From Tigriopus japonicus (lineage: Eukaryota > Arthropoda > Copepoda > Harpacticoida > Harpacticidae), in NCBI GenBank assembly GCA_010645155.1, contig CM021314.1, positions 6,894,279 through 6,958,278 of the forward strand: a stretch of 64,000 nt of DNA, written 5' to 3'. Made by a program: the position numbers and the translations under genes. This document shows positions 16,702 to 56,109 of this stretch, piece after piece. The notes beneath the pieces are model-generated. The model did no database searches, was not told where the DNA came from, and saw nothing but the letters and a program-made list of their open reading frames with translations. Each line of letters starts with the position of its first letter. The first letter of the stretch is position 1.

Positions 16702-16850
16702 TCAGGAACTCGATCTCAAAACATACAGTATCTTTCGCCCGATATTTCAACGTTCATGTATCATGGCAAGCTATGATTGATTTAAATATCATTCACAAAG
16801 ACTTTCCTAAGCCTTTGACTAAAGCACTCTCAAAATCATTATAGACAAGA

Positions 16851-18539
16851 TTGCAGCTTCACAAGAGTCAGCTGAACACGGATCCTTCCGAATCAGAAAT
16901 TGAACAATTTAAGACTGCACTTCTCGAGAAGTATGCATTTGTCTTTGATTCCTCAACTCAACTCCAAGCCATGAAAGGAACTCCAATGCATATTGATCTC
17001 CTACCCATCACTCCGGAAAACAAACCTAGAATTTGCATGGTTCCACGTGATGTTCCATACGCTTATCGCGATCCAGCCAAGCAAGAACTGGACTATATGA
17101 TCGATACGAAAATCGTCCGGTCCTCCGCTGAACTCTCTCAGAAGTTGAAGAAATCTCCAGACTTCGTCTCGCCCTCTCTAATCGTACCCAAACCGAATGG
17201 ATCAGTGCGATTTGTGATTGATTTTCGTGAACTCAATCGCTTTGTCAAAATGCCAATTCATCCCTTCCCATCTGTAAAGGACGTGAAGACATCGATTCCT
17301 CATAACTCAAAATGGTTTGCAACTCTGGATTGCACTAAAGGATACTTCCAAGTACCTTTGGATGAAGAAAGTCAATTGGCAACGAGCTTCATCACTCGTT
17401 GGGGAACTGCCCCAATGGGTCTCTCGAGTTCAGGAGATGAGTTTTGCGCGCGAGGAGATAGAATTCTCGAGAAAATTCCAAACAAGATCAAGGATGTGGG
17501 CGATATCCTGATCTTTGCCAAAACCTATTCCGAACTTCAAGATACTTTGGAAACTCTACTCAAAACATGTCAAGATCATCAAATAACTCTAGCTCCGGCC
17601 AAGTTCAAAATTGGCAAGAAGGTATCATTTGTGGGCATGATTATCAGTCAAGAAGGTGTTTCCGCTGATCCTTCAAAGGTTCAAGGCATCAAGGACTTTC
17701 CTATTCCTGCCAATATTATGGATCTTCGTAGTTTCTTCGGACTGGCTAATCAACTGGGATCTTTTCTTCCTGACCTCTCAAGTCAACTCGAACCCCTTCG
17801 TCAACTCCTTCGTCCAAAAAATTCATAGGTATGGACGAATGAACTTCAAAAGGCTTTTGATCAAGTCAAAACCACTTTGTCCTCTCTACCTGTTTTGGCT
17901 CACTTCAACATGTCTCTCCCCTCACGACTGGTGACTGATGCCTCAAAACTCAACGGTATTGGTTTTGCTCTCCTTCAAAATCATGGTTCCAATGGAATTG
18001 ATCAATGGAGACTGGTTCAAGCCAAAAGTCATTTTTTATCAGAAACCGAATCTCGGTACTCGGTGGGAGAAATTGAGGCTCTCGCTATTCAATATGGTAT
18101 CAAGCAATGTGATGTATACCTTCGAGGCCTCCCTCATTTCATCGTAATTAGCGACCACAAGCCACTTCAATCAATTATGAATGGGTACAATCTCACAAGC
18201 ATCGAAAATCCAAGAATGCAACGTTTTGTTGAAAAGCTCATTGGCTACAATTTTAGCGTTGAATGGATTTCCGGAAAGCAACACTTAATTGCGGATGCGT
18301 TAAGCCGATCTCCTGTTCAAGATCCAGATCCAATCTCCGAGTCCGGTGAAGATTTCAATCATGTACTATGTTCCAATGTTGTTACGACTCTGTCCGATCC
18401 AAATCTCGATTTTCTTCACTCTGCCGCGGAGGAGGAGGAGGAATACCAGGAACTAATTAAGGCGATATCTACTACGTGTCCTAAAAAAGTCCAAAAACTT
18501 CCAGTGAATCATCTTTGCTCAAGCGGAACGATACAATGA
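16851..18539 (+). pseudogene. Reverse transcriptase-RNase H of Ty3/gypsy, inactive
   Basis: The frame holds RT landmarks: FVIDFRELNRF, then LDCTKGYFQVPL, then the active-site block VGDILIFA, where Ty3/gypsy enzymes have VDDILIFA, so the first catalytic Asp of the pair is Gly. A TAG at 17826-17828 interrupts the frame. The same frame then continues through RNase H (VTDASKLNGIGFAL, SVGEIEALA, ISDHKPLQ, GKQHLIADALSR). After about 18520 the reading jumps straight to the integrase C-terminal region, so the integrase zinc-finger and DDE core are missing. Confidence 0.88.
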
Positions 18540-22922: not shown

Positions 22923-24791
22923 TCAGCAGTTCATAAATGCTGCATACACACGCTTTGTCATCTTATTGGGAGGTCGGAATCGATGAGATGAGTTCTTGTG
23001 AACAAACTCTTTGGCTAGACTCTGGGCCCACAAAGGTTGGGAGATGGGCACCATGTGGCCTGCATTGCGTACAATCACATAGGTTAATCCTCCACCTTGA
23101 GCCACATGGCCAGCCAATTCATGGGCTTTCGTGTCCTCGTTCCAGACCCAGAATATCTTCCGTTTACCGAATCGCGACTTCCTCTTCCATTCGAGGGAGT
23201 TGATCACCTTGTTAGTTCCAGGAACGTTGACAATTACATCCAGATTGCCATTGTAGACTAGAACCTCAATCGAGCCCTCATTCAGGATGTCATTGAGCCA
23301 GGATTTCTTGCTATACATAACTGCCTTTCCGAGGTAATCCGACGACAGGAAATCGTCGTAGAATCGTCGTGCGCCCACATTGATCCCTCGACGCACGTGC
23401 TCTTGTTGAAGGAAACAGATGTATTCGTGATTGGTCAGGTAATTGCTGCCAAACGTGAAATCATAGATGTTGGTCAGATTCATCACCTCGGTGGCAAAGT
23501 ACATCAGCGCTTTTTGAAAGCTTTCCATATCGCCTTCACCTTCAATGGCCTTCGGGATGTCCGCATCAAACGCCTTGAGCGTCTTGTATTGTTCCGGACT
23601 GACGTAACCCAAATTGGACACGAAATCCGCGTATTGACTCTGCTCAAGAGCACTCAAGAATCCGTTGCCGATGCCGATGCCTTTAAAATTAAGTCTGGAC
23701 AACAAGTCGGCGAACTGGGAAGGTTGGCGTTTCAATTCCAAGTACTTGTGTGCCAGGCTCACCACGTAGGATCCGCCATAGGATTCGCCAAAGGCAAACA
23801 CTCGAGTGGACTCGGCACTCTGACCTTTGGTGAAGTGGGGAAAGACCTTCATAAATTGGGAGAGGGCCTCCAGAAGGTCAACCGCCACGTCTTTATCGGC
23901 TCGGGCATATCCTTCTTCATCCTCAGTGAAGCTGAAGCCCGTTCCAACGGGACTGTCGATGTAAAGCATGTGATGAGATTTGGTCCAACTGTAGCGGTTG
24001 GGAATGAGATAGGGATGGGAGTACTCATCGTTCCATCCCATGAGAAAGGGGCCATTTTCCTTGAAAAGACCGTATACGGAAGGCCAGCCAGGGCCGCCTT
24101 GAAGCCACACAACCAAGGGAATGTCACCTTTGATTTCCGGCTTTGAGGCTGGGAAGTACCAGAAAAATAAATTAGAACCAAAAGTCTTGTTCACGGTCAG
24201 GTAACCGGAATAACTACGCTCGCTTTGTAAGATGAAGTGAACCCGAGATCGATGCTCGGCCTCGTCAAATTCACCGGCCTCGATAAGTGGGGTCAAGAAT
24301 AAGGGTTCACCCACATCTTCTGAGCTAAAATTCTTGTGAATGGCCTTCGGATACACGGAATAACAGAGCCTCGGCTTTTCACGAGGCGTTTGAAGCAGTT
24401 TCGCATGCAAGGTGGCAAAGTCATCTTCGGATTCGGTGAGCTTCCATACCACCATGGTGCAGCCAAAGCAGAAGCAGAAGAATGTCATAATGATGGCATA
24501 AGTAATTAGCCGCTTGTAACGTTCGATCTCTTCGAAGGCTTTCACTTTGTCCTTCTTCAACTTTTCGATCTGACGCAGATCCTTGGCGTCTGATGTTCCA
24601 CCACTCTCCACACCTCCCATTAATGTGGGCTCAAGGCCATCCTCGTCGTCCTCAAAATCCTCATCCGGACGCATATGTCTACTGTTCATATCCGATCGGG
24701 TGGGATTGCCGTTGGAAAAGCTGTTTCCACCATTGCTGAGGGAACACACGGCCGAATGCATCTTGTTATTATCAGGACGAACATGGAACAA
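22923..24791 (-). CDS. Serine carboxypeptidase, CPVL-like, membrane-anchored
   Basis: A 622-residue intronless frame of peptidase family S10, which removes C-terminal residues from peptides in lysosomal or secretory compartments. Visible landmarks are WLQGGPG (229-235) for substrate binding, GESYGG with nucleophile Ser337, Asp518 in YNGNLD, and His579 in NAGHMVP, so the triad is complete. The WLQGGPG form and the overall pattern fit vitellogenic carboxypeptidase-like proteins (CPVL). Unusually, about 94 acidic and polar residues precede a hydrophobic segment (about 95-117). This suggests a type II membrane protein rather than one with a cleaved signal peptide; family members are usually near 470 residues. 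The start is the first ATG of the frame; Met11 is an alternative. Confidence 0.93.
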   Translation of the reverse strand: MFHVRPDNNKMHSAVCSLSNGGNSFSNGNPTRSDMNSRHMRPDEDFEDDEDGLEPTLMGGVESGGTSDAKDLRQIEKLKKDKVKAFEEIERYKRLITYAIIMTFFCFCFGCTMVVWKLTESEDDFATLHAKLLQTPREKPRLCYSVYPKAIHKNFSSEDVGEPLFLTPLIEAGEFDEAEHRSRVHFILQSERSYSGYLTVNKTFGSNLFFWYFPASKPEIKGDIPLVVWLQGGPGWPSVYGLFKENGPFLMGWNDEYSHPYLIPNRYSWTKSHHMLYIDSPVGTGFSFTEDEEGYARADKDVAVDLLEALSQFMKVFPHFTKGQSAESTRVFAFGESYGGSYVVSLAHKYLELKRQPSQFADLLSRLNFKGIGIGNGFLSALEQSQYADFVSNLGYVSPEQYKTLKAFDADIPKAIEGEGDMESFQKALMYFATEVMNLTNIYDFTFGSNYLTNHEYICFLQQEHVRRGINVGARRFYDDFLSSDYLGKAVMYSKKSWLNDILNEGSIEVLVYNGNLDVIVNVPGTNKVINSLEWKRKSRFGKRKIFWVWNEDTKAHELAGHVAQGGGLTYVIVRNAGHMVPISQPLWAQSLAKEFVHKNSSHRFRPPNKMTKRVYAAFMNC

Positions 24792-26369
24792 ATATTTTGA
24801 TAATCATTGGGGAGGGGTTAACTATCCTCACAATATTCGAAAGCAAACTCGAGACTTCACAGCGTTTGAATCCATGTCAAGAGACCTACTGATCCATTCA
24901 CTATGAGAGAGGGAAAAACGGAGCACAACGATCGTCGATGGGCGAACAAGAGTCGACGGAGAAAGAAAGACAGAAAGACGAGCAAGTCATTCACTACACA
25001 AACTGCTTCACTACGGAGAAGAGAGGACACCCAAATCCCAGCTTTTGAGCTAGAATTCTAGACCGAGAGGAAACTCAATAGGCGGCCTTCAGGCATCTCA
25101 GGAGATACTTCCCATTGCTTTTACCAAACTGCTCCCACTTTTCATCTGATTTAGTGTTGGATGATTTCTTTTTTCTCAGAACCAAACATTACAAGTGTTA
25201 AGGACCACAAACTTTTTGCTTTTTGACATTAACCAGTTTGCAGCAAAATTGTCAAAACTGTTTAATAAATGGGAGGTCCCTTAACCTCGACGACTTATTA
25301 CAACGAAACAAGAATAAAACACTCAATTATGGGCACTTAAGAGGAATAGTGTTTTCACATTTTATTTGTCTCATCTAATATTAGTAATATCTTCTAATTT
25401 GCACTCTAGGTGAGAATGCTGTTGAGATTTGAGCGTTCGTACCTCTGAAGGGCCGTCATTTTTGGATAAACATCTCATGGTTTCAGGAGTCAATACGTTT
25501 CAAGCATACTTCGCAGAAGACAATTAAAACTGGGTTTCAATTGAAATTTCCATAAATTTCAAGTGTCAAGACTAATCATCGGTTTAGTTCGGTACTCTAA
25601 TTTGTGACAGCCCTCTAATTGTGGTACGAGATTTTGTTAGTTTGCTTACTTGTTCTGATGCTTACCAACGATTGAGCTTTCTTTTTGTTCCAAATGCAAA
25701 CGAACGTAAGTACTACTTCCCGCATCAGCAAAGGAAACAGGCAGAACAAGAGAGTTCTTCGTGCAGGATTTGCTCCTCTACTTAATAACTTTTCTCAGGT
25801 ACTACATTGCAGCATTCGTTGAATCCGAGAAAGGCCGCTCAACGGCCTCAAGAGTTTGCCGCTACTTACTAACTAACTACTTTCTTCGTTTCGCATTCGA
25901 TGTTCGTCGGCCTTGCTTGGTCCACACATCGCCCAAGACAATTTCAAAAACTTTCTCGCACAATGCGATAACTTCATTTTGGTCCTAGGTTAAGAAAGTA
26001 GTGCTCAAAACTTTGGTTGTTCGTTTTTGCCAATCTAGGGAATTTAATCCAAGTTTGAAGGAACCTTGAGTATCCTCGGAATGATATGAGCTTGGATCTA
26101 AGACGAACGGAACACTGAAGTCATCCAAAGTGTCCTCCGAGACGAATCACAGGTCATAGATTCTAAAATTGGTCTAGAAATCCATGCACAGGTACACAAT
26201 TTGCAACCGAATACTTGCAAAACATACATGCTATGTAAGTTGGGTCAAGAACGACCCAAATACTACAACGAGTAGAATGAAGGGAGAGAACCGCCCGTGA
26301 TTTCGAGTAGAAATACATCAAATCGATTCCGTTCGTCAAGTGATACGAGGTGGGGGTTGGGTGGACTGC

Positions 26370-39702: not shown

Positions 39703-41109
39703 CTAATAGGCTTGCATAACAACGCCTTGACGTAGCGTGACACATTTGACCTCGTCGATATATATGCTTTGATTTTTGACATTGATTTGGGCTTCCAATT
39801 CCAGTCGACTCTTTTGTAGAGCGGCATAGCAATCCCGGGATTTTGAGAGTTGGGTTTCGAGTCGACGGATCGATTCAATGAGGTTTTCCGACTCCATTTG
39901 AAGTTGAAGGTCGACATCGTCCAAAACGAGCTCACGCTCGGGTCTTTGCTTCCTTTTTTGAATTCGCATTTGGCATGTGGCCAAAGGCCCATGTTTAGCT
40001 GACAAGGCCTTATCCAAGGCCTCCACGCTCTCTTCCAGTTCGTGGATCTTGACGATGGTCTCGGAAAGCTGTTGCTCCAATAAGTTCTTGGCGCCTTTGA
40101 CTTCGTTGAGACGTCGTTCAAATGCCCGATCGGTGAGATCTTTTTGAGATCGAAGATGTGAGGCCACATGAGCTAAGATTCCATCGACGGTCGATTGTAA
40201 CGAAAGCGTATTTTGAACCCTAAGATCGGCCATTTCGAGGTTCTTTTGGCACAAGCTCTGCCAATCAGATGGAGTAAAGGTTGTGGCTTCTGTTTTCTTT
40301 TTGATCGGGTAACGTTTCAAAGGCTCCGGTTTGTTGGTCTTGCTCGGACCCGTCATTTCCAAGGTGGATGTGGTCTCATCAATATTTAAGGCCACCTCTT
40401 TGTCCGCCAAGTCCTTTTCGATGATATTTTTCACCCTGCGGATTTGTCGCATATCTTCGTCGACTTGTAGTTGGGTTTGTTTCAAGAGCACTTGAGCGCT
40501 TTGCACGGTTTGAAGTTCAAACTCTAGATGCCTTTCTACATTATCTCGGACATTATCTACGCCCTGTCTTTGTCGTCGAAAGGCCAAGCATTGGTCATTA
40601 ACCTTCATGGGAAGATCACACGCTTGCAAGGCTTGACCCAAACGAATCGCTTGGCTGTCCATCTCATCCAAAAGCGATTTGAGTGTGGCCAAGCGATTGT
40701 CTAATTCCGATTTCCAGAAACCAATATCCCCGACACGTTGACGGAAGCGCACCTGGACCTCCTTGTGATCTTGTTTGACGCGTTGTTTGACATCCGAAAT
40801 GAGCTCTTTCGTTTCTTGGACCAATTTCTCCGCTTTGACCCGTTCAGTTTCGGCTTGTCGATTGCTTTGCAAATTGGTTTCATTCCATTCGGGGTAGTAT
40901 TTCTCCAGATTGGCGCTCAAATGCTTGGCTCGGGCATTGACTTCGTTATGCTCACCCATAAGAGTACTGGAGATATCCGTACCCACCCGAGAAGGCTTCA
41001 TGGCCATCTCCTCCTTCCGAGATAACTCGTTAGTTTGCGGGAAATTCTTGCGACGACTTATGCCAGCCATTTTGGAACTGGATTTGTAACCAACTATTTG
41101 TGGGATCAA
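39703..41109 (-). CDS. Tektin family protein
   Basis: A 468-residue intronless frame, almost entirely heptad-rich coiled coil, of the length and architecture of tektins. These filament proteins lie inside ciliary and flagellar doublet microtubules; in an arthropod they mean sperm or sensory cilia. Landmarks are FWKSELDNRL near 131, LRVQNTLSLQ near 296 and the C-terminal YIDEVKCVTLR, equivalent to the tektin YIDxxKCxGxR. The signature nonapeptide RPNVELCRD is strongly altered to RPERELVLD (389-397). It resembles tektin-4/tektin-3 more than tektin-1, but the class is not certain. Codons for Met1 and Met14 are both possible starts. Confidence 0.82.
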   Translation of the reverse strand: MIPQIVGYKSSSKMAGISRRKNFPQTNELSRKEEMAMKPSRVGTDISSTLMGEHNEVNARAKHLSANLEKYYPEWNETNLQSNRQAETERVKAEKLVQETKELISDVKQRVKQDHKEVQVRFRQRVGDIGFWKSELDNRLATLKSLLDEMDSQAIRLGQALQACDLPMKVNDQCLAFRRQRQGVDNVRDNVERHLEFELQTVQSAQVLLKQTQLQVDEDMRQIRRVKNIIEKDLADKEVALNIDETTSTLEMTGPSKTNKPEPLKRYPIKKKTEATTFTPSDWQSLCQKNLEMADLRVQNTLSLQSTVDGILAHVASHLRSQKDLTDRAFERRLNEVKGAKNLLEQQLSETIVKIHELEESVEALDKALSAKHGPLATCQMRIQKRKQRPERELVLDDVDLQLQMESENLIESIRRLETQLSKSRDCYAALQKSRLELEAQINVKNQSIYIDEVKCVTLRQGVVMQAY

Positions 41110-42342
41110 TAATCGGGAACAGCCATGGAAACGGCCTCGTCAACCAACCTTCATCCCCTTTTCAGAATGGATCGGTGAGGGTGTTTTGTTGTGGTGAGCT
41201 TTGCGCCCATACGTAATAGGTGTGATCCAAAAAGTGGCCTGGTGTATGCACATCGTTCCAACACTAAGGAACAAGGGTTTTGAATGTCAGGCAATTTGGG
41301 CCCTTGACCTCCTTTTCGACGAATCGACGAATTCGAATTTTGTTTCATAGTTGGAGACTAATTTTGAATTGTTGTTTAACCAAATAGGCTTTATTTTTTT
41401 ATCGCTCCAAAGTCTGCAAGAAGTCTGATGAATAGTTGTAAGCATACTTTTGAAAAGAAAAGATGGCAATTTGGTGATCGGCTCAATTTGAGACAAAATA
41501 AGAAAAAGGGCATTGCTACTCGAGTTAAAAACAAATATTCAAAGATAACAAAGGTAAAATATTTCTGAATTCGGGGTCCAAAGTCCTCGAAACATGTGTT
41601 GTAAAGATCATTGTTCCTTCAATCCTCTTTCCCATGCCATGCTGAAACTCACTTGGTCGAGCAATTGGCACCAAGCCCAAGCTCAGATATCCAATTCACT
41701 GCGTGGATAAACATTTATTTAGAACCAAATACCGCAAAGGAGTCTACCAAATTTACGTTAGTCTTCTGACCTCTCTGGAAAATTAAATTAACTTTTCTCT
41801 GTGTTAGACTTTCTGTTTTGTTCTTGGTCTTGGTCTTTCCTGAACGAAAAATGGAATTAATGATGGACAAATGCGTGAGTAACAGGTAAGATCTCTTCAT
41901 TTTCTTCTCAAAGGACTGTTTTGTGGCTTCCTCCCAATTAGCTGCCTCTTGTGACACCAATATTGGAATGATAAATGGTACGACTAGAGCACGGTGGAAA
42001 CTATATGGTCTAGATGCAATAACCAAAGGACGTGGTAAAGGACAGTCATGTACAAAAAAGACTATTTTTTTCAAGATGGAGTATCGAAATTGATTTGCCA
42101 GCACACCTGGATAACTGGATATAAAATCAGTCGCAAGACATTTAAGGTGCGAGACCTTGTCCACTCAAGAATGCAAAAGTAAAAAGAACAAACTATCAAT
42201 TTCAACGTACTAGCCGCACAACAAAACAGGACCTTAAATTAGTAAGACACTTATGAAGTCAAATACCGTTCACATCAATATCACAGCAATGTCACTTTAT
42301 TCCATTGCGCGGCCCTAAATGAGCCCTCACAAAACAAATAAT
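41110..42342. other. Intergenic between tektin and cathepsin D-like gene
   Basis: I see no gene. It includes the presumed tektin promoter (divergent side) and one copy of the 113-bp repeat (41574-41686). AATAAA on the minus strand overlaps the stop codon of the cathepsin gene (42342-42347), and a second minus-strand AATAAA lies near 42297-42302. Confidence 0.55.
41574..41686. repeat. 113-bp direct repeat, copy 1
   Basis: It matches 44606-44718 at 111 of 113 positions in the same orientation. The two copies lie about 3 kb apart on either side of the cathepsin D-like gene. No terminal inverted repeats, coding frame or known RNA are recognised. Confidence 0.9.
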
Positions 42343-43998
42343 TTATTGAATGGAATCAGCGAATCCAATTCTCATGTTCTCCACATCGAACTCCGAGTAA
42401 AACTTGCCCATAAAGATATCTCCTAAAATCCACCAAGGTCCCATAGGCAAATCGAATCCCATAAATCCAGAGATGCATTGAGTAATGCCAAATTGTGTAA
42501 CCTACAAAGAACAGAAAAAAACATGAAATCCGTTGTCCATTATGGAATGACATCTTTCAATCTCTTTAACGTTACCTGGAGGACATATTCATTAGCAGTC
42601 AAAGTGTAAGCCTTTCCACCGAATGTAAAGGTCACATCAGGTAAATCAGGAATGGTCGAGCAAATGATCTCGTATTGACCAGTTCCAGGCAAGACCTCAA
42701 TTCCACCAATACGCTCATTGATCTCTTTGCAGACGTCAGCGGGCCCCAACAGAAGACTTGTACCAGAATCGATCACCGAAAGGCAACCTTCCTCACAAGC
42801 AACAATATCAGAATCAGCCATCGAGAAACTGTTTGTCAATAAAATTGAGCACCATGGTTGAAATCACGTGTATAATTAATCGTTGTTTTGTTTACCCGTC
42901 CATTGGGATTTTCCAATAGTCATCGCCTTCCACGTCAATGTAGTGAAATTCACCGGTGTACAATGACGGGTCGGATCCTCCAAGGATCATAGCTCCACCA
43001 TTGGGATCTTCAGGGTCGCTGAAATACAAAAGAGTCTTAAACAGCTGTTGCCAATGCTTTAGGAATTTCAATTTTGTACCGGTTCAACCAAAAGGAGAAA
43101 ACGGGAGCTTCGACTAAATCTTGGTCAATCATGTTAGTGAAAAGTGGGGGCACGCCATTGACGGCCAAGTTGGGCAAGCCCATTCCAGCAATTCCGTCAA
43201 ATCGAGCGGCAATGAAGGTAATTCCTGGCTCATGGTTCACCTCGGCGAACATCTGGTCCTGAACGCAGAGTCCAGCCACCTGCGGAAAATATCAGTGGGA
43301 AATGATGTGAATGCGTTTAGTTAGCACCGTTGAAATTTCCGTGGGTAACTCACGCAACAGGTATCAACTGAGAGGAATCCACTGACAGATCCAGATCCAT
43401 AATTAAACACGATTTCTGTCCCATCAGCCACATAGGTGGAAGATTCAGAGCTGTCGTATTGGTCATGGGAAACTTGATAAGCCAGAACAAAATTAAAAAA
43501 ATAGAAGCAAGCATGTTGGGATTGTCCTAGTTAATGTTGTACTTACTGCAACCGAGCTCGAGAATGTTGCAAGTAGCTGAGGGAACCCACAAATTACTAG
43601 ATCCGGTGTCAAAGATCACTTGGAAAACTTGTCCAGGTGTTCCCAACTCAACGTCACCAAAATATTGGGCCTGTGAGAAATAACTTCTATTTAAAAGGTG
43701 TCCTTGGAACCTATTATTTTAAAATTCTCCTACATCTAGGTAGTTGGTAATGTTGGCGACAACAAATTTGTCTCCACCCCAACGATTTTTAGCAACACGG
43801 AAGGAGTTGTCAAGGTCCTCACGGGTCCTTCGACCTTCATGTACTCGTTTCAGTGGGATCCTAGGATAATAAAAAATAACAATACATGAAAAATAATCTA
43901 AGAAGGAATGTTAGATTTACTTACTTATTGAAACCCTGAACCGAGGCCAAAAGAACGGCCAAGGCGAAAAAGCCAACAACGGATCGGAGAGAGATCAT
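42343..43998 (-). CDS. Cathepsin D-like aspartic protease
   Basis: Eight minus-strand exons join in frame to 392 residues: 43998-43925, 43860-43734, 43670-43547, 43472-43354, 43279-43080, 43018-42896, 42828-42576 and 42501-42343. A signal peptide (1 to about 22) precedes a short basic propeptide. The two catalytic motifs of family A1 are intact: FDTGSSN with Asp88 and IDSGTS with Asp276. The flap region [16 protein letters not shown], and the C-terminal [16 protein letters not shown] are all typical. It should act as an acid endopeptidase in lysosomes or as a secreted digestive enzyme. The lack of a vertebrate-type processing loop makes the split between these roles uncertain. Introns are about 54-91 nt, as in neighbouring genes. 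Confidence 0.95.
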
Positions 43999-45098
43999 GA
44001 TGTCAACTGGCTACGTTTCTTATCCACGCGACTATCAACTTTCACGCGACTTTTATCATAATTATTGTACAATTTGATTTACGTACTAGTGTGTTGATTT
44101 AACCTTCCGCCCTATTTGATTAATCTACTTACGTACATACATAGGGAGGGTCTTTGGAGAGAAGTACATAATAGGATTACTTGTTCATATCCATCATCGA
44201 GCTGAACGTTTCTTGCAACTCATCGACTCAAAGCAAAACTCTTGTTTGCAATTATTTGTGGGTTTCTATGTAGTCAATGCTTAATAAACACTAATCTCTT
44301 ACAAAGCTCCAAAAATAGATATTTGAGCCCAACCAAAGAAGGAAACAAACAACATGGCAAGCTGAAACTTCCCGGGCTTGTTCATAATTTCATTCCCACT
44401 TTTCCCCTAAGGAATGGAACAATATCTAGGCGGGACGGCTCCAATGCTTTCTATTCCTATCATCTTGTGCTGTGCACAGTCGCACTTTTATGTTGTTGAG
44501 GGCTTTCATCCACAACGTTTCTCTTTCTTTCCCGTTTCTCCTTGGTTAAGAGAGCTGTTCCACATGGACTGAAGATCTGGTACTGAGCCGATGCTGCACC
44601 ATGAAGGGTCCAAAGTCCTCGAAACATGTGTTGTAAAGATCATTGTTCCTCCAATCCTCTTTCCCATGCCATGCTGAAACTCACTTGGTTGAGCAATTGG
44701 CACCAAGCCCAAGCTCAGGCGTTAGGAAAGAGATCGATGGGATCTCCTGACAGAATTAGGAAAGCTCGCGGGGCCGAGTCTACAGTGAGGCGGTGGTTGA
44801 CGGCTCTCCTTTATCTTGCGTGGCTTGGTTGCCACCAAATGGTAGGCAAACGAATGAACGAGTTGGAGTGGATGGTTCTGGCCAGCCCTCGACAGAGGGC
44901 TTGTCAGCTCACATGATAGAGGCCATCTTAATAGGGAACACTTTCACCAGAGCCCTGGTAGACTCTGTTTCAATGTTGGGGGAAAAATGTCCCGCAATTT
45001 GTTAATGTAAGTGTTGACAGGCTCATGTTTGGGCGTGTTTCTAATTGGCACGGTTTTTGCTCTTTATCTCTTTTAGGTGGGCGTGGAAAGACCTTAGA
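43999..45098. other. Head-to-head intergenic region before stoned
   Basis: This stretch lies between the divergent cathepsin D-like gene (-) and stoned (+), so it should hold both promoters. It contains the second 113-bp repeat (44606-44718). A pyrimidine-rich acceptor ends at 45076, showing that the stoned start exon follows an upstream untranslated exon that I cannot delimit. No further coding frame is supported. Confidence 0.5.
44606..44718. repeat. 113-bp direct repeat, copy 2
   Basis: Near-identical to 41574-41686, with two differences. It lies in the leader or promoter side of the stoned locus and may belong to a 5' untranslated exon. Identity stops sharply at both ends. Confidence 0.9.
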
Positions 45099-45134
45099 AT
45101 GAGGTACCATGTTCAAGGGACTCTCTGGGCTTAA
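45099..45134 (+). promoter_or_regulatory. Upstream ORF overlapping the stoned A start
   Basis: An ATG at 45099 (A at -3) opens a 12-codon frame ending TAA at 45134. It starts 10 nt before the stoned A ATG in a different frame and terminates inside stoned A. Ribosomes that initiate here would bypass the stoned A start and could resume scanning in the AUG-poor stoned A coding region. Confidence 0.45.
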
Positions 45135-48100
45135 AAAGGCCGTGAAAGGAGGTTTCAGTGCCGTTCAAGAACACTCATCTCAGTTGGCCGAACAAGTTGT
45201 TGGAGACCCATCGACAAGTAAAGAACACCTAAAAGAGAGCATCAAAAAGCGTGTCCAAGGAGGCGTTGCTAGTGTCGTTGATGTGGGTGGAACTGTTCTA
45301 GGACCAGAGGCTGGATCACACAAGGAGAAGGCATCCGACGTTGCTCGCAATATCAAACATTACGGAGCCTTCACCGAGGATTACCTCGGGTATGCAGATC
45401 CTACCAAGGACCTTCGCAAGGCCGTAAAAGAACAAGAAAAGGCAGCCAAGAAGGCGCGAAAAGACAAGAAGAAAAAGACTGGCAAAAAAGAGGATCTCTT
45501 TGATCCTGAGAATATCGCAAAATACAAAAAGGAAATCGAAGAAAGAAAGAGACGCGAGGCAGAAGCGCAAAAGTCCACAGCCGACGGTTCAGATCAAGAC
45601 CATTCGGAAGAAGGAGCCCAAGAGGATCGAGAAAATCTTCATCTACAACTTGTCAGTGAAGCGCATTCTTCTTCAGAACGTAACACTCCAATTAAAAGCC
45701 CAGTTAGTGGGGCCGTAACTCCTCAAAGAAACGATAAAGACGATTGGAAACTATTCCAGAATCTTACATCCGGAGTCGATCATCTCATTCAAAAAACAAA
45801 AAACGACTTAGTTGGACTAAAACAAGAAAGCTATTTCAAAAAGAAGGATCCAGTCGAAAGCGCTGAAACCGACGGAGGTGAAAAAGGTGGAAAAGATTCG
45901 AAAAAGAAGTGGGTCAATCTTGACCGAAACAGTTTTGACGACTTTGACGGAGAAGTTTCCGGGGACGAAGAAACAGTTCTTGGTGTTACATCTCGAAAAG
46001 GTTCGTCTGTTGAAAAGGCACCCGTTGAGAGTCTTTTGAAAGAGGAGGTTCAGGAGAAGCAGGTTTCTCGTGAACCCTCAGAAGAGGAAGAGCCCGTTGA
46101 TCCTGATGACGACGACGATTTATTCAACACAGCCTTTGTTGATGCTATTACTAGCGGAGACGTAAAGCTCATTGCTATTCCCGACGATCCCGTTCAAGAA
46201 GAAGGAGACGATCCTTTCAACACAGACTTTGCCAACGAAGTGGTAAAAAAGCAAGAAGAATACACAAGACGGGAAGTAACAAAACTTAAGTTTTCCGGAC
46301 TCTCTTCCGTTGCGGATGTGCTCTCTGGAAAGGCTGACAAAGTCGACAAATCGTTAGTTGATGTAACTGTGAAACGGAAGCGACGACGGGCCAACCGAAT
46401 TAATCTCATTGCTGATGACAATAATGAAGTGACCGCCCTTGAGGACATCGCCACACACGAACCACAAAAAGATCAAGAAACATCCGGAGCTGTTGATATC
46501 TTGTGCGAGTTTGATAGTTCACTACCAATCCCTGAAGGTGATCTTTTAGCTACCAGTCCATCAGTTGATACCAAACAAAAACCGGTTGAGTCGAAAGTCG
46601 CCTTAGATCTCTCTGAATTTGAAGATTTCGGCGGTGAAGTGAGCCCCAAAGGCTCAAACCTCACTAGTAACGTTGCTATTCTCTCGGGAGAATTCGCCAA
46701 GCCTGCTGAGGAAGAAGAAGACGACTTTGATGCTGCATTTGATGTCCTTGCCAAGGAATCTGTAACTAGAACCAGACTTGAAGAGCTTGAGAAACAGTTT
46801 GAAAACGACGATATCTTTGACACAACCAGTGCCGACAAAGTTCTAAAACTCGCCTCACTGATCGACCCTGTCAATAAAGAGGAAGAGGAAATCAACTTTG
46901 AAGATCCCTTTGATACAAGTGCCTACGAAAGCATCACTGGCGACGTTGAGACCGAGCTCGAATTCGAGTCTTTGGCTCAAAGGGAAACGCCCGTAATCAA
47001 TACCGACCAAGTTGTAGCTTCCGCTGGCGAAGCCGCGTTTGGTGGAACTAAAACTGCAAGTGCGGACGAAGGTTGGGCCCGATTCGGAGACAGAAAGCCA
47101 CCACCACGCCCACAACCTCCCCGCCCGAAGCCTGCTCGACCACCTCCATCATTTATTGGTAATGCACTAACTGAAGCTGACGCTCCAGGAATAGTGGTCA
47201 AGGCCCCAAGCACCGAATCAATCAAATCGTGGAACATTTCGGTGGCAGAAAACCTAATCAAGCAATCCGAGGACGCTGTGATCGCTCAGACTGTTCTAGA
47301 GGAAGAAGAGTTTGATCCCTTCGATACCAACAAATTTGACGCAATAGTTCAAAAAATCGAGGACGATCCTTTTGATACTAAAGAGTACGACAATATTGTA
47401 AAAGTTGAAGTCGAAAACGCTGAGGACGAAATAGAAGACCCATTTGACACTTCTCACTTGGAAGGCGATAAACCTAAAGAAGAGAGACCAAACACCAACA
47501 CACTCAAACCTGCCGCTAAAGAAGACGTTGAGTGGGACAGTGCCAACGAAGAGGAAGAAGTGCCTGACGTCATATCAATAGATCTTTTATCTCAAAAAGA
47601 CACGGACGCAGACGCAACTCCAACTTTATTAACAGAAGAGGCCCTAGCACCAACCATAGCCGAACCTGTTGAAGTTGACCCATTTGACACTGCTTTTGCA
47701 GCCGAAGTTCTTCCTGACAAAGGAGATCCATTCGATACAAGTTACGTAAAACACGGTCCGGGTAAGGCCGAGCTCAAGGCCCTTGAGGAAGAGTTTCTCT
47801 CTGAACAGAAGAAGGAGAAGCCAAAGAAACCCAAGAGCAAATTGGTACCTGGAATAGCTGGTCGCGCCCGACCTAAAGGAAGTGTCAAGACTAAGTCTTT
47901 ACCTAAAGTTCAGGCTCCTGAACCGGAACCAATCGAGGACGATCCATTTGACACGTCAATTGCTGACAAGGTGATAAACGACCCTGTGACGAGTGCGGAA
48001 CCAATCCAATCGTCGACAAATAACGCAGAAAAAACCGAGGCATCTCAACCAGAATCGGACGATCCATTTGATACAGGAATTGCAGAACCCAACGTCGCTA

Positions 48101-48165
48101 AAGACTCATCGGAAACGAACTTAAAGGACTCCAGTGACGAAGACGATTTTGATCCCAGGGCTTAA
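45109..48165 (+). CDS. stnA: Stoned A-like protein (first cistron)
   Basis: A single uninterrupted 1,018-residue frame. The N-terminal quarter is basic and Lys/Glu-rich (KKKKTGKKEDLFDPENIAKY). A segment WKLFQNLTSGVDHLIQKT resembles the conserved Stoned A middle. The acidic remainder carries nine DPF[DN]T repeats plus variants such as DIFDT and DLFNT, and a Pro-rich stretch near 665-682. DPF motifs bind the AP-2 alpha ear, so the protein should work in clathrin-mediated synaptic-vesicle recycling. The frame has no Met codon after the initiator. Only eleven ATGs occur in other frames before the next cistron, all in the +1 frame and each followed by a stop within 20 codons. Stoned B starts 34 nt after the stop, which points to a dicistronic mRNA. 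Confidence 0.88.
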   Translation: MFKGLSGLKKAVKGGFSAVQEHSSQLAEQVVGDPSTSKEHLKESIKKRVQGGVASVVDVGGTVLGPEAGSHKEKASDVARNIKHYGAFTEDYLGYADPTKDLRKAVKEQEKAAKKARKDKKKKTGKKEDLFDPENIAKYKKEIEERKRREAEAQKSTADGSDQDHSEEGAQEDRENLHLQLVSEAHSSSERNTPIKSPVSGAVTPQRNDKDDWKLFQNLTSGVDHLIQKTKNDLVGLKQESYFKKKDPVESAETDGGEKGGKDSKKKWVNLDRNSFDDFDGEVSGDEETVLGVTSRKGSSVEKAPVESLLKEEVQEKQVSREPSEEEEPVDPDDDDDLFNTAFVDAITSGDVKLIAIPDDPVQEEGDDPFNTDFANEVVKKQEEYTRREVTKLKFSGLSSVADVLSGKADKVDKSLVDVTVKRKRRRANRINLIADDNNEVTALEDIATHEPQKDQETSGAVDILCEFDSSLPIPEGDLLATSPSVDTKQKPVESKVALDLSEFEDFGGEVSPKGSNLTSNVAILSGEFAKPAEEEEDDFDAAFDVLAKESVTRTRLEELEKQFENDDIFDTTSADKVLKLASLIDPVNKEEEEINFEDPFDTSAYESITGDVETELEFESLAQRETPVINTDQVVASAGEAAFGGTKTASADEGWARFGDRKPPPRPQPPRPKPARPPPSFIGNALTEADAPGIVVKAPSTESIKSWNISVAENLIKQSEDAVIAQTVLEEEEFDPFDTNKFDAIVQKIEDDPFDTKEYDNIVKVEVENAEDEIEDPFDTSHLEGDKPKEERPNTNTLKPAAKEDVEWDSANEEEEVPDVISIDLLSQKDTDADATPTLLTEEALAPTIAEPVEVDPFDTAFAAEVLPDKGDPFDTSYVKHGPGKAELKALEEEFLSEQKKEKPKKPKSKLVPGIAGRARPKGSVKTKSLPKVQAPEPEPIEDDPFDTSIADKVINDPVTSAEPIQSSTNNAEKTEASQPESDDPFDTGIAEPNVAKDSSETNLKDSSDEDDFDPRA

Positions 48166-48199
48166 TTCTTGATTTCTGGTGTATTAGCTGTCGAGCATC

Positions 48200-51100
48200 A
48201 TGGACAATCCTTTCTTATACAATGCGGGCCCGCCTCGCCCACAGGCCCCTCCTATGGATAATCCGTTTCTAGCTCAAGGGGCCATGGGACATGGAGGTCC
48301 AATGCCTGCCCATCATCATCATCATCCACAACATCAAGGTGTAGGGCACCCTGGAGGGGTCCCAAATCCCTTTCTACAAGGGTCACCGGCGCCAGCCTTT
48401 CCTCCAGCTTCCATGGCTCCCCATTCTCAAGCTCACGGGCCCTTTGGTGGACATTATGGTGCCTCTCCACCGGTTCAAGGAGTTCAAGCAAATCCATTCG
48501 CAGACTTTGCAGCCCCGTCTCCACCTGTTTCTCATCATTCGCCATTTCATCCGGTATCAAGTTATGCTCCTACCCACGTTCCACAGCATAGTCAACCAAC
48601 ACCTCCAGCACCACATCAACAGCATCATCATCATCAAGCCTATCCGCAACCATCTCAGAATAATGTCTTCGTGGCTCACAATACTCCCTCGCAAAAGCCA
48701 GATCCACCCGCTAAACCCTCTCCCTTCCATGAGGAGCTGATCAAAGCTGAACCCGCTAAACCACCGCCCGAAGAGTATCCTCCTCCACCTACTGAAATGG
48801 AATTGGAACAATCAACAATTAACCAATCCGATAGGGACGATGAAGATTTAGCCTCCACTACCAAGAAGATGGCTGTCAATGACAACCCTTTCCTCTCCGG
48901 CATATCAACAAATGAGGAAGATGAAGCTGCCTTACCACCTCCCCCCGAGGAAGAGACTTTGAGTATTGGAGCATCTTTATTTGGTAATGATCCTGAGCCT
49001 GCGGTTCTACCACCTGATATCGACCAAGACACTAAAGTGGAACCCCCCAATTTTGAAGAACCGCTAATAAAGGTAGAACCTTCTGAAGCTGATACAAAAG
49101 AAGAAGAGTCAAAATCTGACGTTGAACAGAATAAGCCATTGGAACCTGAGAGTCCAAACGCAAAGCCAGATGCAAACATTCTTGACCTAACAGATAATCC
49201 TTTTGAAACCAAAGAAGAGCAAGAAAGGCCAGAAACTAAAGAGGAAACTGAAATTGTCAAGGATGACGCTCCAGTCGACCCCGAGAAGGCTGCACATGAG
49301 GATTCCCGTGATGAAAAAGATGAAATTGACGAAAAGGTCAAAAAAGATTCCGAAGAAGAAAAGGAGAAAAAGGACCAAGAAGAAGAAGAAGAAGATGAGG
49401 AGGAGGACGACGACGAAGATGAGGAAGAAGAAGAGGACAGGCCAAAACCTGCTATGACAACGGGTGATGCTATTTTTTCGGATTTGCCGACCACTGACGC
49501 AAAATCCACTGGAGCCTCAATTTTCGGTTTGAGTGAAGAGAGTGGTGCGGGATCCACCGGAGCCAATTTGTTTGGAGTCCGAGCTCCTCAATCCACCCAA
49601 CCTGCTTTAGGATCCATGACCGGGTGGGATGACGCATTCGATCGCAAGTTCGACACAGCTCAAGAAACTGTAGTCACAACAAGCTTACCAGGAGATCCAT
49701 TCGACCCATTTGGAGGTCCTGGAGCAGGAGCTGGAGGGTCTGCAGCTAACACCTTTGCCGACAACTCTTTTGGAACCAGCTCGTTCAACCCACCTCCATC
49801 AAAAGCATCCGAAATACCCAAGGAGAAGAACCCTTTCTTGGACACAGGTGATGCCAGTGGCGAAGAGCAAGAGGAGATCCTTTTCGACGACGACACTAGC
49901 AAGCCTTTGGAACCCTTTCCTCGGGTTCATGATCAACCCGACGGTTGGGAAATGTTCGTTCGACATCCCGCCAAAAAGAAGCTCACTGCTCAAAGGTGAG
50001 GCATCGAGAGAGTCAGTCCTTTTAATTAGCTAGTTAATTAAGACTTCCTTGGAAATTGAGATTGATGATGACAACTTTTGTTCTAGGTATTGGAAGAAGG
50101 TTTATGTTCGCTTGATATTGCAAGGTGATACTCCCTGTGTGCAATTGTTTGAAAATAAGGAGGCCAAAGACCCTTTCCAAGAACTGCCTCTTCAAGCCGC
50201 TTACTCACTCTCGGAGATCTCACATCAAGTGTTCGACCAGTATTCCAAGCTTTTTACTCTCAAACTTCAATACATTTTCTATAAAGAAAGAGCTGGAATC
50301 CGGCCCGGTCAAATGAGCAAAATGCAAAAACTCACCGGAAAAATTGGATTCCTCGCCAAAGCTGTTGAAGATGCAGATTACGAAGGCGTTAAAGAATTTG
50401 CAAGTGATATGAAAAAACTTGGAGTTCCACTTGAACATGCTCCACAGGTAAGAAATGGTGTTAAAAGTAGGAATTGGAGTTTAATAAGTGACTCCAGAAC
50501 TGTTGACCCATCATTTGCAGATCTCAGAGTTATTGAAGATTGGCAGTGAAAATTTCGAGGATCTAAAGCAGTTTTCAATTTGTGTCGAAGAAAAGCTTTT
50601 CCGAATGGATGTGCATAGAGAAAGAGCACTCACATACAAGACAGAAGAAGTTCAGCTCACTGCTGTAGATGAAGTCTTTGTGGAACAAGATAAAACTGGA
50701 CATGTTATCAAGCAACTATGTAGGGTCAGAGTGTTTTTCCTGTCCTTCCTCACAGGTATGCAACATTCACTGGTACAACAATATTAATCATGTGAATTTC
50801 TTATTGTTCATAGAATATTTTCCCTATAGGCATGCCTGAAGTTGAGCTCGGTGTCAACGATCTGGAACGTATGGGATTGGAAGTTGTAGGGAGGCACGAT
50901 ATCCTACCTGTCCCAACAGAGCAATGGATTCGTTACGAAGACATCGAGTTCCATCAGATTGTCGATAAAAAGGCCTTCGAAACAAATGACCATATTATCA
51001 AGTATGATTCAAAATGCCAGTGAATGACAAAGACAATCATTGTTTTTGGTCTTTTCCCAGATTCCAGCCACCTGATGCCTGCTACTTGGAGATCATGAGA

Positions 51101-52107
51101 TTTCGAGTAAGGCCTCCAAAGGCTCGAGAGCTCCCTATGCAAGCTAGATGCTCTTTTGAGATATGCGGCAGCAAGGTAATACCTTTCCCCATTGTGTATG
51201 CACTGATTCTATGGTTGGATTCATTGCAGGTGGTCATAAGAGCAGATATGATGATTCCATACCATCACACCAAGGCCTGGGGTCAAGTTCCTTGTGAAGA
51301 TGTAGCCATGCGTATTCCCCTTCCAGAATGTTGGATCTACCAATTCCGAACGGAAAAGCATCACATGTCTTTGAGCCAATTGGCCACTGGCAACATCAAC
51401 CTTGGAACTCGTATGGGCTCGGTCAAATCTGCTCACAGGCGAGCAGGAAAGGTTAACTATAGATTAATTACTTTTTTATGTTTAGCAGAAGTTAGTGTCT
51501 GAAATTAATTCGTTTCAACATTTCAGGTCAAAGGGCTGGAACGGTTCATGGGTACACTTGAGACTCATACTCAAGAGCTCATGGAAACCTCATCGGGTCA
51601 AGCTAAGTACGAGCACCAACATAAGGCTATTGTTTGGAGGGTTCCAAGGCTTCCAAAGCACGGACAAGGTAAAGTGGGAGGGTTTTTTACACTTGCGTTC
51701 CCCAAAGACCGCTCCGCATCTTTCTTTTTTTAGGTTCCTACACTAACCACGAGTTTGTCTGTCGGTTGAATCTAACTAGTTTCGACCAAATGCCTGAAAC
51801 GTTTGACAAGCATTTCTTTGTGGAATTCAACCAACCCGCCACGACGGTGTCCCACACTGTCCTCCGTTCCGTTTCGATTCTGGAAGGATCTGGGGAGCCT
51901 CCCGAAAAGTTTGCCAAATACTTGGCCAGACACGAATACAAACTGGAGATTGAATTCACCGAGAAAGAGCAAAACACTTACGCGGCTGCTGCCACTCAGA
52001 AGAAGGTCATTATGGAGAAGGAGGCAGTAGAGGAGAAGCCTCAGGGAGACCCAGATTTCCCCGACGAGAATGGGGAACGACGATTTTCGGATTCGGATTC
52101 CGATTAG
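48200..52107 (+). CDS. stnB: Stoned B / stonin (second cistron)
   Basis: Exons 48200-49995, 50087-50447, 50521-50755, 50830-51001, 51061-51175, 51230-51451, 51527-51668 and 51734-52107 join in frame to 1,138 residues. The disordered N-terminal half holds seven NPF motifs, which bind EH domains of Eps15/intersectin, and a Glu/Asp run (about 395-415). About 575-720 is the stonin homology domain. From about 780 to the end is a mu homology domain (RVRVFFLSFLTGMPEVELGV, then RCSFEICGSK), the part that in stonins binds synaptotagmin. It is an endocytic sorting adaptor for synaptic-vesicle proteins. The start context ATCATGG (A at -3, G at +4) is strong. No acceptor or promoter-like sequence is needed between it and stoned A. 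Confidence 0.94.
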
Positions 52108-52894: not shown

Positions 52895-53302
52895 ATGAAA
52901 CAATGGTTGGGCTTGTTGTTATTTGTCTTCCTTTACGAAGAGGTTACCAGTGCCATTTCCTGTCACTATTGTGGTCCTGAGAAATTGTGCCCTCTCCCAT
53001 ACGATAAAGATGTGACGGAAGCGGATAAACGGTCCTCGTGCGAAAAGGCTTGCATCAAATTTGACGGTGATAGCAACGGCAAGCGAGTTCTTGTCAGAGA
53101 TTGTGCCCAACCTGAGCATTATGACATGATGAACACGTGCAAAGACGATCAGGAATACCATGGCGCCGAAGGAACTTTGTGCGTATGCAATGGTCCAGAT
53201 TGCAATTCTGCTCATCGGGGTCTTTACCTAAGTGTTGCCATCGTAGTGGCATCTTTAAGCACCCTTTGCTTGCTTGGGTTGCACCTTGGAAATTTTGTTT
53301 AG
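52895..53302 (+). CDS. Ly6/three-finger GPI-type protein 1
   Basis: A 135-residue single-exon frame with a signal peptide (1 to about 20), ten cysteines spaced as in Ly6/uPAR three-finger domains (opening CHYC, closing CVCNGPDCN) and a hydrophobic C-terminal tail (about 112-133), as expected for a GPI anchor signal. Arthropod relatives include quiver/sleepless and boudin-type proteins, which modulate channels or cell junctions at the surface; which one this matches is not clear. A TATA-like box at 52857 and AATAAA at 53321-53326 frame a compact transcript with a very short leader. It is followed 102 bp later by a paralogue. Confidence 0.8.
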   Translation: MKQWLGLLLFVFLYEEVTSAISCHYCGPEKLCPLPYDKDVTEADKRSSCEKACIKFDGDSNGKRVLVRDCAQPEHYDMMNTCKDDQEYHGAEGTLCVCNGPDCNSAHRGLYLSVAIVVASLSTLCLLGLHLGNFV

Positions 53303-54487: not shown

Positions 54488-56109
54488 ATGTCTAAAAACT
54501 TCTACACTCTCCAGTAAGTACCGTGTGTAACTACTTTGCTCATCTTTTTTACCATATTGACAATCAAGCTTGTCTTCAAGGATTATTTGTTTGGCATTAT
54601 GCATCGGATCTGCATTGACCCAAGACATTGACGGGAGTGGCCGAGGACTCTTGGCCGATTTGTTAGGTTTGACAAAGAATGGTCATTGACGTCAAATTGA
54701 CCCTTTGAGTGAAACGTTTTTTAACCTCTCCGTAGGAAAGCATCCTCAAGGCATTCCTTCTTCGTCTAATCTTCAAGAGGGTCGTCAATCTCAGCATTGT
54801 TGTTGTCTCCAATCTGGATCTATCTGCCCAAGTGAGAGTGAATTTGGCGGTAATGAATATGATTATGGTGATGAGGACTACGTAGGTGCTATCATTCCAC
54901 GAGCTCCTGAACAAAATCAAGACGACATCACAACCCGGATTGTTAACTCTGTAAGTGTATACGAGTACTATGAACATACTTTGCGTTATCGAATTTAAAT
55001 TGAAAGTAATAATTTCGTTTCAATAGCCTGATGGCAATTCAGGTAGTGGGTGCTCTGTGGGACAACGACAGTGCTGTTATTCAAGTGCCAAAGCAGTTCT
55101 GTCGGTTTCGAATGTTTGCACCCTCCTTCAAGGAGGTGGTGGACCATCGGCTCCTTGGACCCAAGGGTGTTTTGGCAACTCTCCACGTCAATCAGGGGGA
55201 AAGAGGTGTGGAGAACGAAGTTTTTCCCACTTGAACCAACTTGGACAAGGAGAAGCTAGTCCTCAAGAGTTTCCGTGGGCCTGCATGCTCTTGGATGGTG
55301 AGAATCGGTTTATTGGAACCTGTGCAATTGTTCCCGAAAAATTTGACAACGACATATCTCGAGGAACGACAAAAGTAGTGACGGCAGCCCACAAACTAGA
55401 TGCCATTGGTCAATTTGAGTAAGTTGCGCATGTATTCAACTTCAATTCACAATAATTCGTCATGCTGGAATCGTTTTATAGCCAGTTGAAGGTCCGAGTC
55501 AACGAGTACGACGCCAACGATTTTATTAGCCCGCCAGAAATATCTCGTCATGAGGAATATACCGTGGTCAAAATCACAGTTCACCCTGAATACCGCCCAA
55601 AAAGGTTTATCAACGATTTGGCTGTTTTGGTAGTCGACCGACCCATTGACCTTTTAAGTAATGACGGAGTTAACGCCGCTTGTCTGCCCCACTGTCCCGA
55701 AATGTTTGATTACAAATTCCCAAATGGCACTGGTACTCGTTGCTGGACAGCAGGGTGGGGCAAGGACAAGCTCAACGGCAATTTCCAGCCCATCATTCAC
55801 AAAGTAGACTTACCAATCTACGATCAGAATCAGTGTGAAAATGCAATTCGCAATGAACTCTCGAGGAAGAATCACGCGGCTGGACAACGCCTTCGACTTC
55901 ACGCAAGCGAGCTTTGTGCAGGTGGAGAGGCGGGAAAAGATGCCTGCGATGGCGACGGTGGCGCCCCTCTCGTTTGTCAAGCGGTCACCGGGCAATTCTA
56001 TGTGGTAGGTTTGGTGACTTGGGGCGTGGATTGCGCTCTCCAAAATGTACCCGGGGTCTATGCCAGGATTAGCTATTTCAGGGACTTTATTGAGAATCCT
56101 GAATCGTAA
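54488..56109 (+). CDS. CLIP-type serine protease homologue, catalytically dead
   Basis: Exons 54488-54513, 54581-54666, 54736-54950, 55027-55418 and 55482-56109 join in frame to 448 residues; the two first introns are 67 and 69 nt. A signal peptide (1 to about 22) is followed by Cys-rich clip-like segments (HCCCLQSGSIC; GCSVGQRQCCY) and an S1 chymotrypsin-fold domain from about 200. The His (TAAHK) and Asp (NDLAVL) sites are kept, but the catalytic Ser is Gly399 in CDGDGGAPLVC, where active enzymes have GDSGGP. This is the pattern of prophenoloxidase-activating-factor/masquerade-like homologues, which act as non-enzymatic cofactors in melanisation or adhesion. The first tiny exon rests on splice sites and signal-peptide logic only. 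Confidence 0.85.

Follow-up and report, generated by a model that had tools for sequence, protein, structure and literature searches.

The closest described relative of the locus reported here is stoned of Drosophila melanogaster, with which this kind of gene was first established. Dicistronic transcripts of Drosophila stoned/Snapin are named in the title of Wall, Phillips and Kelly (2005, J Biol Chem 280:27670; title via PMC4528330), and later papers that cite this work describe the first open reading frame (ORF) of stoned as deficient in internal AUGs (PMC11892635, PMC3372440). According to the same two papers, in-frame AUGs attenuate the second ORF in stoned/Snapin reporters, indicating leaky scanning. 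Green-algal bicistronic loci are described in similar terms: AUGs are depleted ahead of ORF 2, internal AUGs sit in weak contexts and leaky scanning was shown by mutation (PMC11892635), and another system for comparison is formed by ORFs I to III of a plant virus, rice tungro bacilliform virus (about 900 nucleotides [nt]; PMC5902531). The present analysis concerns the stoned locus of Tigriopus japonicus, a harpacticoid copepod, within a 64,000-nt stretch of contig CM021314.1 (C11:6894279-6958278 of the 194.9-Mb assembly; this whole stretch is the window below), where the first cistron, stoned A, is depleted of AUGs ahead of the second, stoned B.

According to the descriptions of the fly locus, it and the Tigriopus locus are alike in having a homologous gene pair in the same order, an AUG-poor first cistron and a second cistron that is, or in Tigriopus would be, reached by scanning. 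They differ in the crustacean host and in what was measured here, namely, the context and ORF-length pattern of the surviving AUGs, an exception for terminal methionine (Met) and an overlapping upstream ORF (uORF). Moreover, the Drosophila stoned/Snapin AUG contexts are said to diverge from the consensus, whereas the Tigriopus stoned A AUG is not plainly weak, and the green-algal ORF 1 is described as relatively small, in contrast to the 3.1 kb of Tigriopus stoned A (PMC11892635). The AUG shortage in Drosophila, which an earlier note on this DNA had partly anticipated, was already published, and the novelty is thus smaller than that note implies: the principle is known from Drosophila, and what is new is the copepod case, its depth, the pattern of short frames and weak contexts, and a possible 11-codon uORF. 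The AUG rule in Tigriopus is sharper than in the literature found. No account of a crustacean dicistronic stoned locus or of Met-free StnA across arthropods was among the top literature matches, which covered few subscription journals. StnA is stated to be insect-only in two papers (PMC3393740, PMC3373503); the copepod StnA homologues, already so named in databases, make the protein older than this view holds.

The start codon of stoned A is the sole ATG in its frame, with none among the 1,017 later codons. The out-of-frame ATGs between 45109 and 48199 comprise 11 in the +1 frame and 0 in the +2 frame, and the eleven +1 ORFs span 6, 11, 19, 7, 13, 1, 5, 2, 11, 7, and 2 codons (see Table 1 for positions). 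The final 1,035 nt before the stoned B AUG lack AUGs in every frame, where synonymous shuffles that preserve both the protein and the codon counts give an expectation of 9.1 out-of-frame AUGs. The earlier note had these counts per frame exactly right, as well as the closure of every +1 ORF within 20 codons (1 to 19 as measured) and the AUG-free stretch after the last AUG at 47162. Its expectation of about 48 AUGs is valid for random sequence; under protein- and codon-preserving control, the figure becomes about 25 out of frame, with about 20 in frame at a rate of 2.0%.

That rate comes from control ORFs, defined from stop to stop with at least 200 codons, that were collected from 20 10-kb stretches of the same genome (six containing N), eight 3-kb loci and the window. 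Among the 36 ORFs found, 32 remained after removal of overlaps and 31 after exclusion of stoned A; these 31, some of which may be non-coding, contain 226 ATG codons in 11,303 (2.0%), and their longest ATG-free run is 258 codons compared to 1,017 in stoned A. At the 2.0% rate, the probability of no ATG in 1,017 codons is 1.2e-9. Out of frame, stoned A has 11 AUGs versus 24.9 ± 3.1 in the shuffles, and 0 of 5,000 shuffles had as few. The effect is confined to the first cistron in this comparison: exon 1 of stoned B has 22 out-of-frame AUGs versus 22.8 in shuffles, and the 31 controls together have 429 versus 394.6, with z scores from −1.79 to 2.39 compared to −4.2 for stoned A. The AUG shortage in stoned A is not due to chance; the counts are lower than in composition-matched controls, the opposite of what the earlier note had named as a refutation. 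The emptiness of the +2 frame (P = 0.037) was dropped as evidence on its own because too few AUGs (2.3) are expected there.

Selection at the RNA level can be isolated from selection at the protein level at codon junctions because a +1-frame ATG consists of an NAT codon followed by a codon that starts with G, and exchanging NAT for NAC leaves the amino acid unchanged. Of the NAY codons of stoned A, NAT makes up 11 of 57 where G follows, compared to 55 of 106 where another base does (p = 5e-5). Among the other NNY codons of this gene, T is preferred before G (119/184 versus 95/184 otherwise), and in stoned B, the NAT share does not differ (32 of 57 before G; 71 of 121 otherwise). A separate candidate, selection against near-cognate start codons, is not claimed. 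In frame, CTG accounts for 1 of 61 Leu codons versus 9.2 expected from the 31 control ORFs (p = 0.001), and TTG and GTG are scarce as well (6 versus 15.1 and 13 versus 24.9, respectively, against the same controls); stoned A is, however, poor in most codons ending in G (G3 0.154), and CTG shows no depletion out of frame (40 versus 36.8 expected). The CTG scarcity may belong to this general shortage of G-ending codons.

The out-of-frame AUGs that survive are found mostly where the context is weak and the frame short, a pattern to be expected if 40S subunits scan through stoned A. No AUG in stoned A opens an out-of-frame ORF of at least 20 codons, compared to 9.1 in shuffles, whereas those that open shorter frames number 11 versus 15.9 (P = 0.087). 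Similarly, 3 have a purine at −3 versus 12.7 in shuffles, compared to 8 versus 12.2 for a pyrimidine (P = 0.067). When the 57 possible sites are classified by both properties, ATG occupies 8 of the 17 with a short frame and a weak context, compared to 3 of the remaining 40 (p = 0.0014, for a combination chosen post hoc); taken singly, the differences are less marked (short versus long, p = 0.024; pyrimidine versus purine, p = 0.093). Position matters as well: 0 of the 21 sites in the last 1,035 nt are ATG, compared to 11 of the 36 upstream (p = 0.004), and no surviving AUG starts closer than 1,038 nt to that of stoned B.

To place the in-frame depletion in a comparative setting, 162 distinct StnA proteins were gathered in three protein searches that contributed 39, 4, and 119 new sequences, respectively, the third being limited to the best 120 of 440 matches. 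Of these, P0001 to P0042 are referred to as crustacean-type (only P0001 and P0020 come with an organism name) and P0043 to P0162 as insect-type (a part of which bear insect names). No internal Met is present in 110 of the 162, that is, in 37 of 42 crustacean-type and 73 of 120 insect-type proteins, and the whole set contains 59 internal Met in 135,621 residues. The exceptions cluster near the stop. Specifically, 38 of the 59, all insect-type, lie in the last three codons within the motif LESELM, each after Leu; four more (P0044 to P0047, where P0044 is from Cyamophila willieti) are aligned 17 codons before the end, and P0119 and P0040 have one each at 37 and 31 codons before the end. These first 44, on the C-terminal side, follow Leu, Phe, or Pro, residues encoded only by codons with an initial C or T, and therefore have a pyrimidine at −3, although this is not independent evidence because the motif is shared by descent. 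Nine others probably lie outside the true proteins and were kept in the count of 59: five near the N terminus (P0025, P0104, P0110, P0161, and P0162), probably from upstream starts, and four in tails or an insertion (two in P0035, M552 in P0042, and one in P0089), probably from intron read-through.

When clustered at 70% identity, the crustacean-type proteins form 25 clusters with 4 internal Met and the insect-type proteins 44 clusters with 12 (8 of these in the last three codons), whereas about 429 and 793, respectively, are expected from the I, L, V, and F content and background frequencies. Aligned pairs that include Met are also rare. Observed versus expected Leu/Met pairs number 11 versus 971 in crustacean-type and 38 versus 4,369 in insect-type proteins; for Ile/Met, the corresponding values are 29 versus 500 and 192 versus 1,502, and for Val/Met, 23 versus 536 and 32 versus 1,613. 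Shuffles, codon junctions, control ORFs, and homologues thus all bear out the proposal of the earlier note that selection has acted against AUGs throughout the first cistron.

The explanation that fits best, and that is considered likely, is that both cistrons reside on one dicistronic mRNA and that 40S subunits scan through the AUG-cleared stoned A to reach stoned B. Some 40S subunits would skip the stoned A AUG, either by leaky scanning or by way of the 11-codon uORF, and scan about 3.1 kb to the stoned B AUG, with selection keeping this path clear. A ribosome that started at an in-frame AUG would enter a long ORF and be lost to stoned B, and such an AUG would thus be removed unless near the stop; a weak, short-framed out-of-frame AUG would be skipped, or the ribosome would resume scanning after it. 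Ribosomes can resume scanning after an ORF of a few codons, and weak AUGs get skipped, which is why both could be tolerated. The terminal Met of LESELM illustrates the converse of this rule: the stop follows within one to three codons, and the frame opened by such an AUG is therefore very small. The in-frame depletion is particularly informative: because an in-frame AUG diverts 40S subunits into a long ORF, it matters if they scan stoned A, but it leaves the StnA frame intact. If stoned B instead depended on internal ribosome entry, a spliced leader, a promoter of its own, or reinitiation once stoned A has terminated, such an AUG would have no consequence, or would have one only close to the stop. 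Of the two mechanisms suggested in the earlier note, long-range scanning fits the AUG clearance. Reinitiation can be retained for the short out-of-frame ORFs within stoned A and not for termination of stoned A itself, given the loss of AUGs 3 kb upstream of that stop.

If scanning indeed occurs, the locus offers a natural and broadly sampled test of how far 40S subunits scan on an animal mRNA and which AUGs they ignore, across 3 kb in which selection seems to sort AUGs by context and frame length. The Met-free rule may suffice to find further scanning-dependent dicistronic genes from sequence alone.

Several other routes to stoned B were weighed against scanning. Spliced-leader operons, known from nematodes and chaetognaths, share with stoned the close spacing of same-strand cistrons; here, a leader would be trans-spliced to an acceptor in the spacer, for which the acceptor-like stretch with AG at 48187 is a candidate, and stoned B would be translated from a capped mRNA of its own. 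Because calanoid copepods use a 46-nt leader and the spacer looks like an acceptor, this was a serious candidate, and a leader is probable in parasitic siphonostomatoids as well; but the same source gives no significant CopepodSL or CopepodSL-like matches in harpacticoid and cyclopoid data (PMC4664967), and the copepod leaders tried were not found in the Tigriopus genome. Specifically, the CopepodSL pattern (20 specified bases) had no listed match with up to 2 mismatches and 20 with 3, compared to 11 for a reversed-pattern control, and the 26 bases common to CopepodSL-like1a and CopepodSL-like1b had no genome match with up to 3 mismatches, CopepodSL-like2a-c not having been tried. As the operon model does not predict AUG removal, it leaves the clearance across stoned A and in insect-type homologues unexplained, and a spliced-leader operon is decidedly unlikely here. 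In a separate observation, one 24-mer with 3 mismatches to CopepodSL occurs at C1:8020346, C5:6128624, and C118:7368 of the assembly (G000) and is probably a dispersed repeat. The text available from a chaetognath genome paper mentions Tigriopus as food only and has nothing on its splicing (PMC12460157). The acceptor at 48187 could instead pair with the leader donor at 45007, such that cis-splicing past stoned A, or alternatively an internal promoter, would provide stoned B with an mRNA of its own and the AUG gap would be a relic. Monocistronic forms are indeed reported for many fly dicistronic loci (PMC4528330), and an extra monocistronic stoned B mRNA may coexist with a dicistronic one, these explanations not being mutually exclusive. 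However, a relic would decay, yet synonymous AUG avoidance is strong in Tigriopus and internal Met is still absent from most homologues (37 of 42 crustacean-type, 73 of 120 insect-type), so this explanation is unlikely.

Termination-reinitiation, whereby ribosomes that finish stoned A remain bound to the mRNA and initiate again after 34 nt, would benefit from the very short spacer and is in keeping with the strictest out-of-frame clearing being in the last third of stoned A. It is nonetheless very improbable because internal AUGs would then matter only close to the stop, yet they have been removed over 3 kb, out of frame too; furthermore, ribosomes reinitiate inefficiently after a long ORF unless a helper is present. 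An internal ribosome entry site directly 5′ of stoned B would not need AUG clearance 3 kb upstream either, and the last 150 nt before stoned B do not fold better than shuffled sequence (z = +1.13; 179 of 200 shuffles as good or better), which is weak evidence; despite the statement by FlyBase authors that such sites may be in common use in fly dicistronic genes (PMC4528330), internal entry is extremely unlikely. Finally, Met could be avoided in the acidic, disordered StnA protein for reasons with no bearing on translation, and StnA is indeed poor in Cys (0.42% over the 162 homologues) and Trp (0.29%) too. Avoidance of this kind cannot account for the synonymous avoidance of out-of-frame AUGs, and Met is used at the terminal LESEL-M in 38 of the 120 insect-type proteins, which makes the protein-level explanation hardly credible.

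Some observations count against scanning through an AUG-cleared stoned A. With A at −3 and T at +4, the AUG of stoned A cannot be called clearly weak, and leakiness is thus not explained by its context alone. Three of the 11 surviving out-of-frame AUGs have a purine at −3, and sites that are both short and weak are ATG in 8 of 9 cases upstream and in 0 of 8 within the last 1,035 nt. This strictness, together with the terminal AUGs in 38 insect-type proteins, requires an extra assumption. P0041 and P0042 each contain three internal Met, aligned within their family and in two of three cases following Glu (purine at −3); hence, the AUG rule is not universal. The lineage of these two proteins seems to have lost the constraint. 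Among out-of-frame trinucleotides in stoned A, TTA (z = −4.57) is depleted as much as ATG (z = −4.43), and AGC (z = −2.58), CCC (−2.47), and TAC (−2.09) come next, with TAG and CTA low as well (z = −1.8 and −1.6). The TTA deficit is probably TpA avoidance since exon 1 of stoned B is short of TTA, CTA, and TAA, and because TTG, GTG, and ACG out of frame are above expectation in stoned A, the ATG loss is not general TpG avoidance. The out-of-frame pattern comes from the DNA of one species, the in-frame rule being the comparative part; a search for orthologous DNA gave 53 pattern-matching stretches in viral_contigs and 303 in genome_contigs, with no relative among them.

At the downstream end of the proposed path, the AUG of stoned B is flanked by A at −3 and G at +4, which is favorable by the general rule. 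At the upstream end, the putative 11-codon uORF shares a predicted exon with the stoned A start; its AUG precedes that of stoned A by 10 nt, and its stop ends at base +26 of stoned A. A ribosome using this uORF would pass over the stoned A AUG, terminate at +26, and be free to scan on. Two AUGs farther upstream, at 44987 and 45005, share the uORF frame provided that the predicted 70-nt leader intron exists and the leader extends to them. By a tentative extension of the scanning model, one that is possible and rather doubtful, stoned B would be fed by ribosomes that translate the uORF, bypass the stoned A AUG, and rescan about 3 kb past weak-context micro-ORFs. If so, the uORF would set the split between the StnA and stoned B proteins, and the whole of stoned A would act as an upstream region under a context-and-length AUG code kept across Pancrustacea.

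The identities that the earlier note had assigned to the two cistrons agree with the homologues. UniRef names TCAL_03141 of Tigriopus californicus "Protein stoned-A"; StnA matches it with 87% identity over 100% and Lepeophtheirus salmonis stnA with 43%, and profile A1 ties copepod StnA to P0043 (E = 3.7e-34), the relatives of which include named insect stoned-A proteins. Residues 752 to 1085 of the predicted stoned B protein match the mu-homology domain PF00928 (E = 2.1e-38); the predicted spliced protein contains 27 Met. The start, length, and spacing of the cistrons were all reproduced from that note (ATG at 45109, 1,018 codons, and 34 nt to the ATG at 48200), and so was the end of stoned B, although a single ORF up to 52107 was not: seven predicted introns of 54 to 91 nt each are needed for the predicted coding sequence to end there. 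The spacer contains no AATAAA and includes a possible 3′ splice-site-like stretch that ends ...TGTATTAG at 48187. Two adjoining cistrons with such a gap agree with the dicistronic layout suggested before and are compatible with both being on one mRNA. Tigriopus stoned appears to be a conserved dicistronic locus, with a single transcript presumably carrying the pair.

Table 1. Features of the Tigriopus japonicus stoned locus (positions are those of the window)
Feature	Position(s)	Strand	Description
Predicted 5′ leader intron	45007-45076	+	70 nt; GTAAGT ... CTAAT ... TTTTAG; read from sequence, splice sites by consensus only
Putative uORF overlapping the stoned A start	45099-45134	+	11 codons; A at −3
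stoned A	45109-48165	+	1,018 codons; stop TAA at 48163-48165; from ATG count and homologues
+1-frame ATGs in stoned A	45281, 45392, 46106, 46142, 46316, 46361	+
+1-frame ATGs in stoned A, remainder	46415, 46424, 46730, 46742, 47162	+
AUG-free stretch, all frames	47165-48199	+	1,035 nt directly 5′ of the stoned B AUG; from ATG count
Intercistronic spacer	48166-48199	+	34 nt, followed by the stoned B ATG at 48200
stoned B	48200-52107	+	8 predicted exons; 1,138 amino acids
stoned B predicted exons 1-4	48200-49995, 50087-50447, 50521-50755, 50830-51001	+
stoned B predicted exons 5-8	51061-51175, 51230-51451, 51527-51668, 51734-52107	+

Other features were observed in the remainder of the window. 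A spliced gene on the minus strand at 42500-44000, with motifs that we take to be aspartic-protease-like, is divergent from stoned at a distance of about 1 kb, such that a shared promoter region is possible. Downstream of stoned, a single-exon gene on the plus strand (52895-53302) encodes a cysteine-rich protein of 135 amino acids that is Ly6/uPAR-like by eye. A reverse transcriptase ORF (PF00078) between two adjoining ORFs at 16009-18539 on the plus strand is probably part of a retroelement; the ORF at 16009-16701 had no Pfam match. Additional Pfam matches include a serine carboxypeptidase S10 and a tektin (22926-24803 and 39706-41139, respectively, minus strand) and a trypsin (55456-56109, plus strand).

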